Assembly: GCF_018024495.1 (NCBI RefSeq)
Contig: NZ_CP071696.1
Span: 744,001 to 808,000 of the forward strand
Length of the DNA: 64,000 nt
Reading direction: 5' to 3'
Source of the DNA: Agromyces archimandritae
Lineage (GTDB): Bacteria; Actinomycetota; Actinomycetes; Actinomycetales; Microbacteriaceae
Shown: positions 50,623 to 54,162 of the stretch, piece after piece
How positions within the stretch are numbered: the stretch's first letter is position 1
How the letters are laid out: the number at the start of each line of letters is the position of its first letter
The notes under the pieces: model-generated
The model's input: the letters and a program-made list of their open reading frames with translations, nothing else
The model's database searches: none
Told to the model about the DNA's origin: nothing
Program-made: the position numbers and the translations under genes

Positions 50623-50631
50623 TGCTACGTT
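50623..50631 (+). promoter_or_regulatory. Extended -10 promoter for the small ORF
   Basis: TGCTACGTT contains the extended TGn motif plus TACGTT at 50626-50631. No good -35 is present, as is usual for extended -10 promoters. Transcription would start near 50638, about 26 nt before GTG 50664. Confidence 0.45.
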
Positions 50632-50663
50632 CTCGGCACGGCACAGAACCAAAGGAGGAAGCT

Positions 50664-50741
50664 GTGAGATACCGCAGGTTCGAGACCTGCTCCTCCTCTA
50701 TGGCCTTCAGCGGAAACACCGCCTACTACAACGTCAGGTAG
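50664..50741 (+). CDS. 25-residue small peptide, possible exported signal or antimicrobial peptide
   Basis: A short frame from GTG 50664 to TAG 50741, preceded by a near-perfect ribosome site, AAAGGAGG, 5 nt upstream and by a promoter. The peptide is basic at the start (Arg2, Arg4, Arg5), has one Cys (Cys9) followed by three Ser, and ends AYYNVR. It has no signal peptide or membrane helix. A stable hairpin and then a lipoprotein, adaptor and ABC exporter genes follow. Either it is a leader peptide whose translation controls the hairpin, or it is the product exported by the system. No homologue is recognised. Confidence 0.5.
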   Translation: MRYRRFETCSSSMAFSGNTAYYNVR

Positions 50742-50747
50742 GCATGA

Positions 50748-50783
50748 CTTGGGGGCCGCCGCGTGACTCCGGCCGCCCACAAG
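50748..50783 (+). terminator. Hairpin between the 25-codon ORF and the exporter genes
   Basis: CTTGGGGGCCGCCG pairs with CGGCCGCCCACAAG in 12 of 14 positions around a short loop. It begins 6 nt after the small ORF stop and ends 20 nt before ATG 50804, sparing the GGAGGTGA ribosome site. It may act as a partial terminator or attenuator so that the small peptide is made in excess. Confidence 0.6.
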
Positions 50784-50803
50784 TCCCGACCCGGAGGTGA
50801 ATA

Positions 50804-51400
50804 ATGCACTTTGCTCCCAGACATGTAATCGCTGCCTCCGTCGGGAGTATGAGCATGATTCTGCTCGCTCTGACGGCTTGTACGAACCCCGATCCCAAGC
50901 CGGTCTTCGAGGGGGCATGGGCGCAGGAGTTCGCGGACCACTACGCGGACGCGCAGGACGACTTCGCGCGAGAGGTTCTCGAAGACGGGGTCGTGTCGGA
51001 TCAGGAGCGCTCAGAGATGATTTCACGCTTCAAAGAATGTGCGGGCGCCCGCGGCATCACGATCGATTATCATCTCGATGGCACATTCGAGACGAACATT
51101 CCAGCGGGCCTCGGCCCAGACGGTGCCCATGAAACAATCTCATCGTGCAGCGAATCGTCGGGTGAAGATCTCATCGGCTCGCTTTATTCCCAGATACTGA
51201 CGAACCCTGACAATTTAGACGAGAATCAGCTTATCGCGGATTGCATGGTAGAACGCGGGGCAGTACCCGCAGGGTACCGTGGAGAAGAATACGTCGAAGA
51301 CGGATTTGATGGCGAATACCCGTACAGCATTGGGGAAGCAAAGGGCGAAGAGATCAGGCATGAGTGCGACCGAGACCCTCTGGGCCTGATCCCCGAATAG
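50804..51400 (+). CDS. Lipoprotein of the peptide-export-like cassette, unknown family
   Basis: A 198-residue lipoprotein with lipobox LTAC (Cys26). GGAGGTGA 5 nt before ATG 50804 is an excellent ribosome site. The mature part is acidic with four more Cys (KECAGARG, SSCSESS, ADCMVERG, HECDRD), which could form two disulfides. An early stretch, FEGAWAQEFADHYADAQDDF, is helical. No known domain is recognised. Codon use is less GC-biased than in neighbours, hinting at transfer. It precedes the adaptor by 10 bp, so it probably serves the exporter at the cell surface, for example as substrate-binding or immunity protein. Confidence 0.65.
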   Translation: MHFAPRHVIAASVGSMSMILLALTACTNPDPKPVFEGAWAQEFADHYADAQDDFAREVLEDGVVSDQERSEMISRFKECAGARGITIDYHLDGTFETNIPAGLGPDGAHETISSCSESSGEDLIGSLYSQILTNPDNLDENQLIADCMVERGAVPAGYRGEEYVEDGFDGEYPYSIGEAKGEEIRHECDRDPLGLIPE

Positions 51401-51410
51401 TGCACAGAAT

Positions 51411-52478
51411 ATGCAAACTGCACGCACCGTTCTCCACCTGCAAGGCCATATTCGAGCGAAAAAGCTGGGACTGTTCTCTATTGTCGCCCTGCTCAGCGCA
51501 GTCGTGGGGGCGGCTGCCGCGACCGCATGGCTCGCTCCCGATACTCCGAGGGATCTCGGCACCCCCGCGCCCATCGGAACCGCTCCGGTCACGATGCGTT
51601 CGTTCGACGATGCCCGTCCGGTCGAGATCGCGTTCACCATCGACGAGCCCGTTCCGATCGTCTCGCCGGCCAGCGGGACCATCACCGGCACGAACTGTGC
51701 CGCCGGGGTAGCGCTGCGTTCCGGCGCATCGGATTTCCAGGTGAACGGCACGCCGATCGTCAATCTCGCGACTGAAGTCCCGCTTTGGCGGGATCTGCGT
51801 ATCGGCGACTCCGGTGAAGACGTCCTCGCACTGCAGGAAGAACTGGCCCGACTCGTCGGCGGAGTCACCGCAGACGGGGTGCTCGGCAGCGGCTCGATCG
51901 CAGCCTTCGACGAGCTTCGCCCGGCGCACGTGCCCGCTTCGACCGAACCCGTCATCGCAGTCGGCGAGGTCCTCTGGCTGCCCGCCGATTCGACCCTCGT
52001 CACATCGTGCGCCGTGCCGCTCGGCGCTTCCGTCGAGGCGGGGGCACGGCTCGTCGAGGTCGCCGGTGCGCCGGCGCAGGCCGCTCTCACGGCAATACCC
52101 GAGCGGCTCATCGATGGGGAGCGGAAGCTGCTGATCGGCGATGTCGTCGTCCCGCTCGATGACGCCGGCGTTGTGGGCGCAGAGGCGGACCGTGCCGCAC
52201 TCGCGGACACTCCGGTCGTGCGATCCGCTCTTGCCTCGGACCCTCCGCAAACGGTCTCGGGCGAGCTCTCGCTCCTCGAGCCGATCGAAGTCGGCGCTGT
52301 GCCGCCCTCCGCTCTGTACCGGGTGGATGGCGACGACGCCTGTGTATTGGTCGACGGTGCACCGATTCCCGTCCGTATCATCGGATCTCAGCTCGGCGAG
52401 ACCTTCGTGGAGTTCCCATCCACCCCGCCGGAGGCGGTTGCGCTGGCCCCCGGCCGAGGAGCCTCGGAATGCCGGTGA
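51411..52478 (+). CDS. Membrane-anchored adaptor with peptidoglycan-binding domain
   Basis: A 355-residue protein with one N-terminal helix (LGLFSIVALLSAVVGAAAATAWLA) and a long extracytoplasmic part. Residues about 130-170 match a PG_binding_1 domain (LRIGDSGEDVLALQEELARL, TADGVLGSGSIAAFDEL). Flanking beta-rich stretches (PIVSPASGTITG, VGEVLWLPADSTLVTSC, VEAGARLVEVAG) resemble HlyD-type efflux adaptors. Actinobacteria often pair such proteins with MacB-like ABC transporters. It overlaps the ATPase gene by 10 bp. It probably links the permease to the cell wall. Confidence 0.75.
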   Translation: MQTARTVLHLQGHIRAKKLGLFSIVALLSAVVGAAAATAWLAPDTPRDLGTPAPIGTAPVTMRSFDDARPVEIAFTIDEPVPIVSPASGTITGTNCAAGVALRSGASDFQVNGTPIVNLATEVPLWRDLRIGDSGEDVLALQEELARLVGGVTADGVLGSGSIAAFDELRPAHVPASTEPVIAVGEVLWLPADSTLVTSCAVPLGASVEAGARLVEVAGAPAQAALTAIPERLIDGERKLLIGDVVVPLDDAGVVGAEADRAALADTPVVRSALASDPPQTVSGELSLLEPIEVGAVPPSALYRVDGDDACVLVDGAPIPVRIIGSQLGETFVEFPSTPPEAVALAPGRGASECR

Positions 52479-53086
52479 GTCTCGAAGGTCTCGGTCACCG
52501 CTTCGCAGGGCGGCCATGGCTGTTCACGGGCGTCACGAGAAAGTTGCTGCCTGGGCAGGTCTACGCCCTGACCGGGCCGTCGGGCTCCGGAAAGAGCACG
52601 CTCCTCGGCATGCTCGCCGGCTGGATCGAGCCGACCGCGGGGCGTATCACCCGCTCCGGCATCCGAGCGACGAAGTGGGTGTTCCAGAACCCCCACGGTG
52701 CGCCGGGTCGCTCCGCGTCCGACCTCGTCGCGTTCCCGCTGCTCGCCTGCGGCGCACAGCCCGACGATGCGGATCGCGCCGCAAGCGACCTCCTGGATCG
52801 CTTCAACCTCTCCTCCGTCAAGACCCACGAGTTCCGCTCTCTCTCGGGCGGAGAAGCGCAGCGGCTCATGCTCGCCAGAGCCGTCGCCTCTGCCCCCGAC
52901 CTCCTCCTCATCGACGAGCCGACGGCGCAACTGGATGCCACGACGGCCGCGACGGTCAACAGCGTCATCGGCGAACTCGGCGGCGACGGCATGATCGTCG
53001 TCGTGGCGACCCACGACGAACGAACGCGCGACGCATGTTCCGCGGTGATCGATCTGGCGCTGTTCGCCGAGAGCCCCGCCGGCTGA
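52469..53086 (+). CDS. ABC transporter ATP-binding protein (MacB/LolD-like)
   Basis: A 205-residue nucleotide-binding domain with Walker A GPSGSGKST (36-44), Q-loop VFQNP, signature LSGGEAQR (125-132), Walker B LLLIDEP (145-151) and switch His in ATHDE. The LSGGEAQR signature and length match the ATPases of MacB/LolD/FtsE type, which drive mechanotransmission rather than simple transport. It overlaps the adaptor gene by 10 bp and shares one base (TGATG) with the permease. Confidence 0.9.
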   Translation: MPVSLEGLGHRFAGRPWLFTGVTRKLLPGQVYALTGPSGSGKSTLLGMLAGWIEPTAGRITRSGIRATKWVFQNPHGAPGRSASDLVAFPLLACGAQPDDADRAASDLLDRFNLSSVKTHEFRSLSGGEAQRLMLARAVASAPDLLLIDEPTAQLDATTAATVNSVIGELGGDGMIVVVATHDERTRDACSAVIDLALFAESPAG

Positions 53087-54162
53087 TGCGCATCGCCTCG
53101 CTGCTGAGAGAGGTCGCCCGCAACGTCGGCAGCGGCACCTCGCAGGCCCTCACCCTCTTCCTCGTGAGCGCCCTCACCGGAACACTGCTCGTCGCGGCCG
53201 ACACCTTCACCGTGCGCGGCCTGATCGCCGAAGCCGACGCGTTCCGCGACCGCGGCGCGGCCATCATGACGATCACGGCACCCGGCGCCGTCGACGGCCG
53301 GAGCTGCGCGTCGCTGCGAGATGCCGAGGGCGTCCTCGCCGCAGGCGCGATCCGAGCTCGGAACGACGATCTGCGGCTGTCGGTCCTCCCCTCGATACCC
53401 GTGTCCGCCTATGAGGTGACGACGGGCTTCCCGACGCTGCTCGCCCCCGAGCCGGAAGCGATTCCGAGCGGCGTGCTTCTCGCGTCGGAGGTGGCGGAAC
53501 AGATCGGTGTCATGCCGGGTGATGCGATCTCGACGCAAGAGGGCCCGGTCGAACTGGCCGCCGTCTACGCATACCCGAGCGATGGGCGCCGAGGGGGCCT
53601 GAACTGGGCCGTGCTCGCCCCCGTGCCGCAGGACGGCGTCTTCGACGAATGCTGGGCGTCCACGTGGCCGCCGAAAGACGGGCTCTCGACGCTTCTCAAC
53701 GCGACGATCGTCGCAGGCGCCCCTCAGGACGACGGGCCCCAGATCTCTCAGCTCAACACCACGCTCGGCGTGCATTTCAACGTGCCGGAGCGGTACGCGT
53801 CGCGTCTGACCCGGTACGTGCCGCTCGTCGCGGTGCTCGGTGCGCTCGCACTCGGATGGATCGCCATTCGCCGAAGACGACTCGGAATCGCCTCCGACAT
53901 GCATGCCGGGCTGACCCGAAGCGACGCCGTCACGCAGATGCTGCTCGAAGCATCGAGTTGGGCCATCCCGGCGGGTGCATTCTGCGTGTCGGCAGCCGCG
54001 CTCTTCGCCGCCGGCCTGCACGTCGACGAGCTGGCCGCCGCACTGACGAACGCCCTGCGCGTCGCGGTGGCCCTGACCGGGGGCGCACTCCTCGGCACAC
54101 TGCTCGGCACGCTGGCCGTTCGCGAACGGCACCTCTTCGCATACTTCAAGGATCGACAATGA
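53086..54162 (+). CDS. MacB/FtsX-type ABC permease
   Basis: A 358-residue permease with the layout of type VII ABC transporters: one helix at about 15-40 ([20 protein letters not shown]), a 200-residue extracytoplasmic domain with three Cys (RSCASL, DECWAS region), then three helices near 245-355 ([57 protein letters not shown]). Start is the ATG in the TGATG junction at 53086. With the ATPase, adaptor and lipoprotein it forms a tripartite-like exporter; the substrate may be the 25-residue peptide, which is inference. Confidence 0.8.

Follow-up and report, generated by a model that had tools for sequence, protein, structure and literature searches.

A lactococcin-972-type cassette in Agromyces archimandritae with retained partner genes and a probably collapsed bacteriocin gene

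In the lactococcin 972 operon of the Lactococcus lactis plasmid pBL1, the partners of the bacteriocin gene are a protein with seven transmembrane segments (TIGR01654 type) and an ATPase (TIGR03608 type); to our knowledge, this operon contains neither a lipoprotein nor a peptidoglycan-binding adaptor. Here we describe a locus in a stretch of 64,000 nucleotides of Agromyces archimandritae (contig NZ_CP071696.1, positions 744,001 to 808,000; hereafter the window), where a frame of 25 codons precedes genes for a lipoprotein, an adaptor, an ATP-binding cassette (ABC) ATPase and a permease. We consider it highly probable that this locus is an acquired lactococcin-972-type cassette, the toxin gene of which has collapsed while the lipoprotein and the transporter were kept, probably as immunity.

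The pBL1 operon resembles the window in its layout, the family-defining bacteriocin gene lcn972 being followed by orf2-orf3, a putative ABC immunity pair, and the partner genes are termed immunity genes in the available part of PMC4055356. Lactococcin 972 binds lipid II, as stated in the excerpt of PMC9964109. According to the available text of PMC11796350, the roles of both partner genes have not been verified in any lactococcin-972 locus, and 157 of 571 pneumococcal genomes (27.5%) have only scbBC and no bacteriocin gene, for which that paper cites earlier work. The pneumococcal scb locus (streptococcin B) is thus like the window's in being lactococcin-972-like and in keeping its partner genes without the bacteriocin gene. 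It differs in belonging to a Firmicute and in that its bacteriocin gene is absent, whereas that of the window is cut to its tail; the same excerpt presents its partners as proteins with predicted immunity and transporter roles. Among actinobacteria, a lactococcin-972-related operon of Brevibacterium lies on a genomic island and joins the bacteriocin gene to genes for an ABC ATPase and for two proteins that span the membrane; unlike in the window, the bacteriocin gene is unbroken, and no lipoprotein is mentioned in the excerpted text (PMC5719810). The lactococcin-972-like cluster of Propionibacterium acnes is actinobacterial like the window's, and the available part of PMC4289311 says that its gene order differs from that in Lactococcus.

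Compared with the classical locus, defined by TIGR01654 and TIGR03608, the window differs in both partners: its ATPase reaches 98.3 bits against TIGR03608, below the cut-off of 254.85, and its permease does not match TIGR01654. Tripartite exporters of the MacAB/FtsX type share with the window an adaptor, an ATPase and, possibly, an FtsX-type permease, while the window's system is set apart by the peptidoglycan-binding-like insert in its adaptor, by its separate ATPase and permease and by its linkage to a bacteriocin gene. The gene order seen in the window is that of a type we define here as the lipoprotein/adaptor-type lactococcin-972 locus, with the bacteriocin reduced to a remnant. In PubMed Central, which lacks most subscription papers, and in the text excerpts available, no description was found of a partner set made of lipoprotein, adaptor and FtsX-like permease, or of stacked bacteriocin-lipoprotein modules.

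The 25-codon frame and lactococcin-972 precursors

The frame has a GTG start and a TAG stop, its translation is MRYRRFETCSSSMAFSGNTAYYNVR, and a strong Shine-Dalgarno sequence, AAAGGAGG, lies five bases upstream of the GTG. An earlier interpretation from the letters alone (the sequence-only reading) had assigned the peptide to no described family. Its end, SGNTAYYNVR, is however that of the lactococcin-972 family, whose precursors upstream of homologous cassettes end in ...SGNTAYYDVLS, SGNKSYWDVK, GNTAYYDVQ or SFGNTAFYNVG. The terminal 11 residues of 19 intact precursors of this kind, with one extra residue trimmed from two of them and the 25-mer excluded, were used to build a tail matrix. With this matrix the tail FSGNTAYYNVR scores 35.9, within the 27-44 of the 19 training precursors, while the runner-up among the 1,210 stop-anchored 11-mers on both strands of the window reaches 5.5. 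Of 5,361 stop-anchored 11-mers on the plus strand of 53 loci, the window's included, a single one that lies outside a lactococcin-972 gene or remnant exceeds 10, at 10.9. When no stop was required and both strands were scanned, matches of up to 25.7 were obtained outside lactococcin-972 genes in related loci; hence the anchoring to the stop matters for the tail test.

The pattern GN-x-A-[YFW]-[YW] before the stop, defined from the 19 precursors, is also present in the 25-mer. With a profile of the full-length precursors, none of the window's other six-frame fragments (1,312 in all) scores as high as the 25-mer, which also outscores all of 20,000 shuffles. Whole family members at this position are ca. 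96-110 amino acids (aa) long by the starts judged best, with an N-terminal end that looks signal-peptide-like by eye. As judged from its sequence, the 25-mer is a C-terminal stub left by a gene of the lactococcin-972 family, a remnant of such a bacteriocin and not a member of the family. That its first residues, MRYRRF, are the former precursor start is a guess.

Homologous cassettes and the insertion site

Searches with the adaptor, in which all counts include the window's own genome, gave matches in 29 of 299 same-family genomes at E 1e-15, in 8 of 60 same-genus genomes and, at E 0.001, in 18 of the 60 nearest genomes; of these last matches, the weaker resemble generic adaptors. The best adaptors in the 60 same-genus genomes are 41-42% identical, and no close relatives of the window's cassette were seen; relatives with organism names come from Leucobacter coleopterorum (39% identity) and Mobiluncus porci (35%). 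Among 72,556 plasmid records no plasmid-borne relative was found at E 1e-10. For comparison, 54 adaptor loci were used: an initial set of 46, among them the window's, and a further 8 within 7 loci. By BLAST, 44 of these cassettes have the order lipoprotein, adaptor, ATPase, permease. Eight lack an upstream lipoprotein gene, three of them having one downstream of the permease, cassette L077 gives no match for the ATPase, and cassette L146 is incomplete.

In 20 of the 54 cassettes a full-length lactococcin-972 gene lies directly upstream, at the place of the 25-mer in the window, and in four, counting the window, the upstream gene is a remnant. An independent search with PF09683 above its cut-off found matches in 23 of 36 genomes, 31 in all, 20 of which lie in the cassettes and 11 elsewhere. 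TIGR01653 was passed by all four upstream precursors scanned (32.2-46.3 bits, cut-off 32.1), three of them narrowly. The absence of the small frame from homologous loci, which the sequence-only reading had named as refuting its proposal, was observed: of the other 53 cassettes, 20 have a full-length gene at this place, 3 another remnant and 30 no lactococcin-972 trace, and the Shine-Dalgarno-preceded short frames listed upstream in 46 loci, of which several exist, include by eye none like the 25-mer. A leaderless peptide or conserved short frame was rejected as a candidate, with no second tail of this kind beyond the named bacteriocin genes and remnants. A 49-codon membrane-protein-like frame is shared upstream of L087 and L089 (about 2842-3001), two cassettes of related genomes without a lactococcin-972 trace.

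The flanks of the cassette point to its acquisition. In each of the 29 other same-genus loci examined, the BrkB-like and Exo_endo_phos genes that stand on its two sides are neighbours, with a gap of 55-324 nucleotides (nt) between match ends. The comparison covered the 30 best loci, the window's among them, and a BrkB-like gene is present in 59 of the 60 genomes. The coordinates of genome G005 likewise place the BrkB-like and exonuclease III-like genes side by side. Among the site loci compared, the inserted segment is present only in the window, and the sequence that precedes the exonuclease-like gene in the relatives resumes at GTGTCGGCGG, position 54211. The guanine-plus-cytosine fraction is 0.54-0.59 over 50600-51500, compared with about 0.70 around it. 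Since the flanking genes adjoin each other in other same-genus loci, we infer from the empty site in the relatives that the cassette was gained here, most simply by horizontal transfer. Sequence and synteny together show a structural gene that, on this comparison, has lost all but its end.

Several observations weigh against this assignment. The 25-mer reaches no family in Pfam and NCBIfam, PF09683 and TIGR01653 included, PF09683 has no match above its cut-off in the window's own genome, the residues preceding MAFSGN have no recognisable homology, and the full-length profile gives the 25-mer an E of 0.032, not significant alone. As 30 of the 54 cassettes carry no lactococcin-972 trace, the cassette may also serve other peptides; in L140 (L. 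coleopterorum, about 4065-4330) a different small secreted-peptide frame, not lactococcin-972-like, stands upstream. Against it, too, the adaptor and the lactococcin-972 gene lie apart in four genomes that have both (G166, G207, G217, G222). In favour of the assignment, PF09683 occurs in 31 of the 299 family genomes, the adaptor in 29 and both in 22; the Fisher p of 2e-20 for this co-occurrence treats both searches as covering the same 299 genomes and ignores relatedness.

Partner genes, hairpin and other remnants

The four downstream genes are open frames, tightly spaced, as the sequence-only reading had described them; the features of the locus are collected in the table.

Table. Features of the lactococcin-972-type locus, in window coordinates
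Feature	Position	Strand	Basis
Inserted segment, 3.7 kb, between BrkB/YihY-like and exonuclease III-like (Exo_endo_phos) genes	50552-54210 (approximate ends)	.	synteny
25-codon frame, read as what remains of the C-terminal end of a bacteriocin gene of the lactococcin-972 family	50664-50741	+	tail FSGNTAYYNVR scores like true precursors
Intercistronic hairpin between bacteriocin stop codon and lipoprotein gene	50746-50785	+	folding versus shuffles
Lipoprotein, candidate cognate immunity protein	50804-51400	+	no Pfam/NCBIfam family; lipobox Cys26
Membrane-anchored adaptor, HlyD/CusB-like with peptidoglycan-binding-like insert	51411-52478	+	profile matches
ABC ATPase, nucleotide-binding motifs intact	52469-53086	+	PF00005
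Permease, FtsX/MacB-like family	53086-54162	+	profile matches

The window's lipoprotein matches no family in Pfam and NCBIfam, and 20 relatives give only scattered weak NCBIfam matches. In all 20 aligned sequences the lipobox Cys26 is invariant together with Cys79, Cys115, Cys147 and Cys188; a single-sequence structure model is poor (mean predicted local distance difference test score, pLDDT, of 40). The ATPase matches PF00005 with E 2.8e-26 and retains Walker A, signature and Walker B, both in its translation and as invariant alignment columns. For the adaptor, the profile matches peptidoglycan-binding domains (best E 0.001), with CusB below significance; PG_binding_1 is found in 9 of 17 adaptors of the family, the window's own giving no match at E 0.01. 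FtsX (PF02687) is found in 6 of 18 permeases of the family and not in the window's own, and the permease profile weakly matches MacB C-termini (5gko, E 0.02).

The hairpin after the frame, called strong in the sequence-only reading, is present, but alone it is only moderately stable (z -1.6, matched by 16 of 200 shuffles); the whole 171-nt leader is more stable (z -2.37). Hairpins of other sequence occur at the same place in 7 of the 20 intact loci (L081, L082, L083, L086, L093, L102 and L103; z -1.9 to -7.1). The hairpin is therefore not special to the 25-mer but ordinary anatomy of some lactococcin-972 loci. One also lies between bacteriocin stop and lipoprotein gene in the remnant locus L034 (z -2.3), the 65-nt folds of the remaining 13 intact loci are not unusually stable, and in L031 a strong fold (z -4.0) that follows the remnant lies within the next gene. 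Scans of 50540-54260 found no T-tailed (intrinsic) terminators and, by consensus, no sigma-70-type promoters, so that of the tiny frame with promoter, Shine-Dalgarno sequence and stop proposed before, everything except the promoter was confirmed. No known RNA element was found at the hairpin by Rfam at the gathering score.

Broken bacteriocin genes are found in other cassettes as well. The second cassette of the window's own genome has a gutted lactococcin-972 gene with both ends and no middle (L031:2303-2478; G000:C1:2021802-2021977), in which a signal-peptide-like N-terminal end, ...TTEYVGGGTWR-stop, is followed in another frame by the C-terminal end ...GYSGNHFYWWHI-stop; the tail scores 21.1 and the N-terminal end 15.6 bits. 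Two tandem lipoprotein genes stand behind this gutted gene. The same-genus genome G030 carries a C-terminal stub, SLNNNRAYFYNY, in cassette L034 and, in cassette L035, the C-terminal half of a lactococcin-972 gene on the opposite strand (inverted). In L076 a C-terminal half lies before a second lipoprotein gene, upstream of the intact bacteriocin gene, and the locus holds in total three lipoprotein genes together with one intact and one broken bacteriocin gene. Four matches to the lipoprotein family surround one cassette in L039, one of them on the opposite strand and three on that of the cassette, as if such lipoproteins accumulated.

Twelve of 21 lactococcin-972 matches outside cassettes were examined with longer flanks. 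In L156-L158 the bacteriocin gene is followed by the family lipoprotein, with no adaptor, ATPase or permease within the 8-kb stretch, and each of the three genomes carries an adaptor cassette elsewhere. Eight loci (L159, L160, L162-L167) have an ATPase downstream of the bacteriocin gene and neither lipoprotein nor adaptor. In two of these that were inspected, the intervening gene encodes a membrane protein, 683-684 aa in length. One of the two proteins matches TIGR01654 with 49.8 bits, below the cut-off of 189.35, and the second gives no match; the single ATPase scanned from lipoprotein-less loci reaches 208.6 against TIGR03608 (cut-off 254.85). L161 has neither the lipoprotein nor the ATPase type of partner. 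As lipoprotein loci and lipoprotein-less ATPase loci occur in one bacterial family, lactococcin-972 genes have at least two alternative sets of partners there.

Outside the cassette, the sole Rfam match is a flavin mononucleotide (FMN) riboswitch (RF00050) at window positions 56766-56906, as expected before riboflavin genes. On the minus strand at 41095-49131, an open frame of 2678 aa resembles a secreted, repeat-containing surface protein that ends in an LAGTG-type sorting signal; it is mirrored on the plus strand by a frame of equal length, which looks spurious.

A probably collapsed toxin gene and the alternatives

If the locus is a collapsed lactococcin-972 cassette, the 25-codon frame would be the leftover C-terminal tail, still at its usual position ahead of hairpin and lipoprotein gene, and its ribosome-binding site and start may be those of the old bacteriocin gene. 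Lipoprotein, adaptor, ATPase and permease would most likely form a surface self-protection system. The lipoprotein would bind the incoming bacteriocin or shield the cell-wall structure that it targets, and the bacteriocin would be expelled by the MacB-like ABC complex. Such a role is suggested by the gene association, by the usual role of partner genes and by the fact that the lipoprotein and ABC genes have outlived the bacteriocin gene in two loci of the window's own genome. Intact precursors seem to have signal peptides, so ABC export would not be required, and self-protection would be expected over export. The 25-mer itself is probably without function, or at most a short leader coupling translation to the lipoprotein gene.

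A stronger form of that last role, in which the shortened gene has been re-used and translation of the 25-codon frame, now a leader, controls the downstream genes via translational coupling or the hairpin, appears unlikely to us. The strong Shine-Dalgarno sequence and start, the intact downstream genes and a hairpin placed as in 7 of the 20 intact loci are all consistent with it. However, no similar short frame was seen in other loci, the hairpin has no T-run, 13 of the 20 intact loci have no unusually stable fold, and the AGGAGGA of the Shine-Dalgarno sequence is paired with the Ser codons UCCUCCU in the predicted RNA fold of the leader, a pairing that would hinder translation of the frame. 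The attenuator, which the sequence-only reading had named as the main rival explanation, is not needed to account for the frame, although the leftover may have a secondary leader role.

That the C-terminal tail by itself acts as a miniature bacteriocin or signal, exported through the ABC system, is very improbable, even though an intact frame with good start signals adjoins a transporter. The tail lacks the family domain (PF09683, 62 positions), neither a signal peptide nor the GGxW motif at which the mature domain starts was seen by eye in the 25-mer or in the frames upstream, the other 53 cassettes hold no equivalent, and three other same-genus cassettes have lost different parts. An antimicrobial-peptide locus with ABC transporter and lipoprotein, as first proposed, is upheld, while the leaderless exported peptide has given way to a lactococcin-972 stub. 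Hardly credible is a likeness by chance, with a spurious open reading frame before an unrelated MacB-like exporter: the profile E within the window, the lack of a curated family match and the unanchored chance 11-mers speak for it, but the score of the stop-anchored tail lies 30 units above that of any other stop of the window, stop-anchored 11-mers outside lactococcin-972 genes and remnants almost never pass 10, and the same position is a bacteriocin gene in 20 homologous loci.

Beyond the collapsed cassette itself, we tentatively suggest that in actinobacteria the lactococcin-972 peptide and the conserved-cysteine lipoprotein encoded next to it could be a cognate toxin-immunity module, stacking and mobile, that shares one peptidoglycan-anchored MacB-like pump. 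Genomes like the window's might then keep pump-lipoprotein loci with collapsed toxins as an immunity repertoire, with the stub as leader. This possibility is raised by L076, with its three lipoprotein genes and its intact and broken toxins, and by the bacteriocin-lipoprotein pairs in three genomes without neighbouring adaptor, ATPase and permease.

At its core, a collapsed bacteriocin gene is ordinary, and the locus is a useful pointer to a lactococcin-972 locus variant that we did not find described. A false lead, a new exported mini-peptide, is replaced by a testable system, and a lipoprotein family without a Pfam or NCBIfam name is tied to actinobacterial lactococcin-972 bacteriocins. The window presents the partner-genes-only state in an actinobacterium, with partner genes other than the pneumococcal ones, and such partner-only loci would allow one to ask which gene is protective, and against whose bacteriocin.

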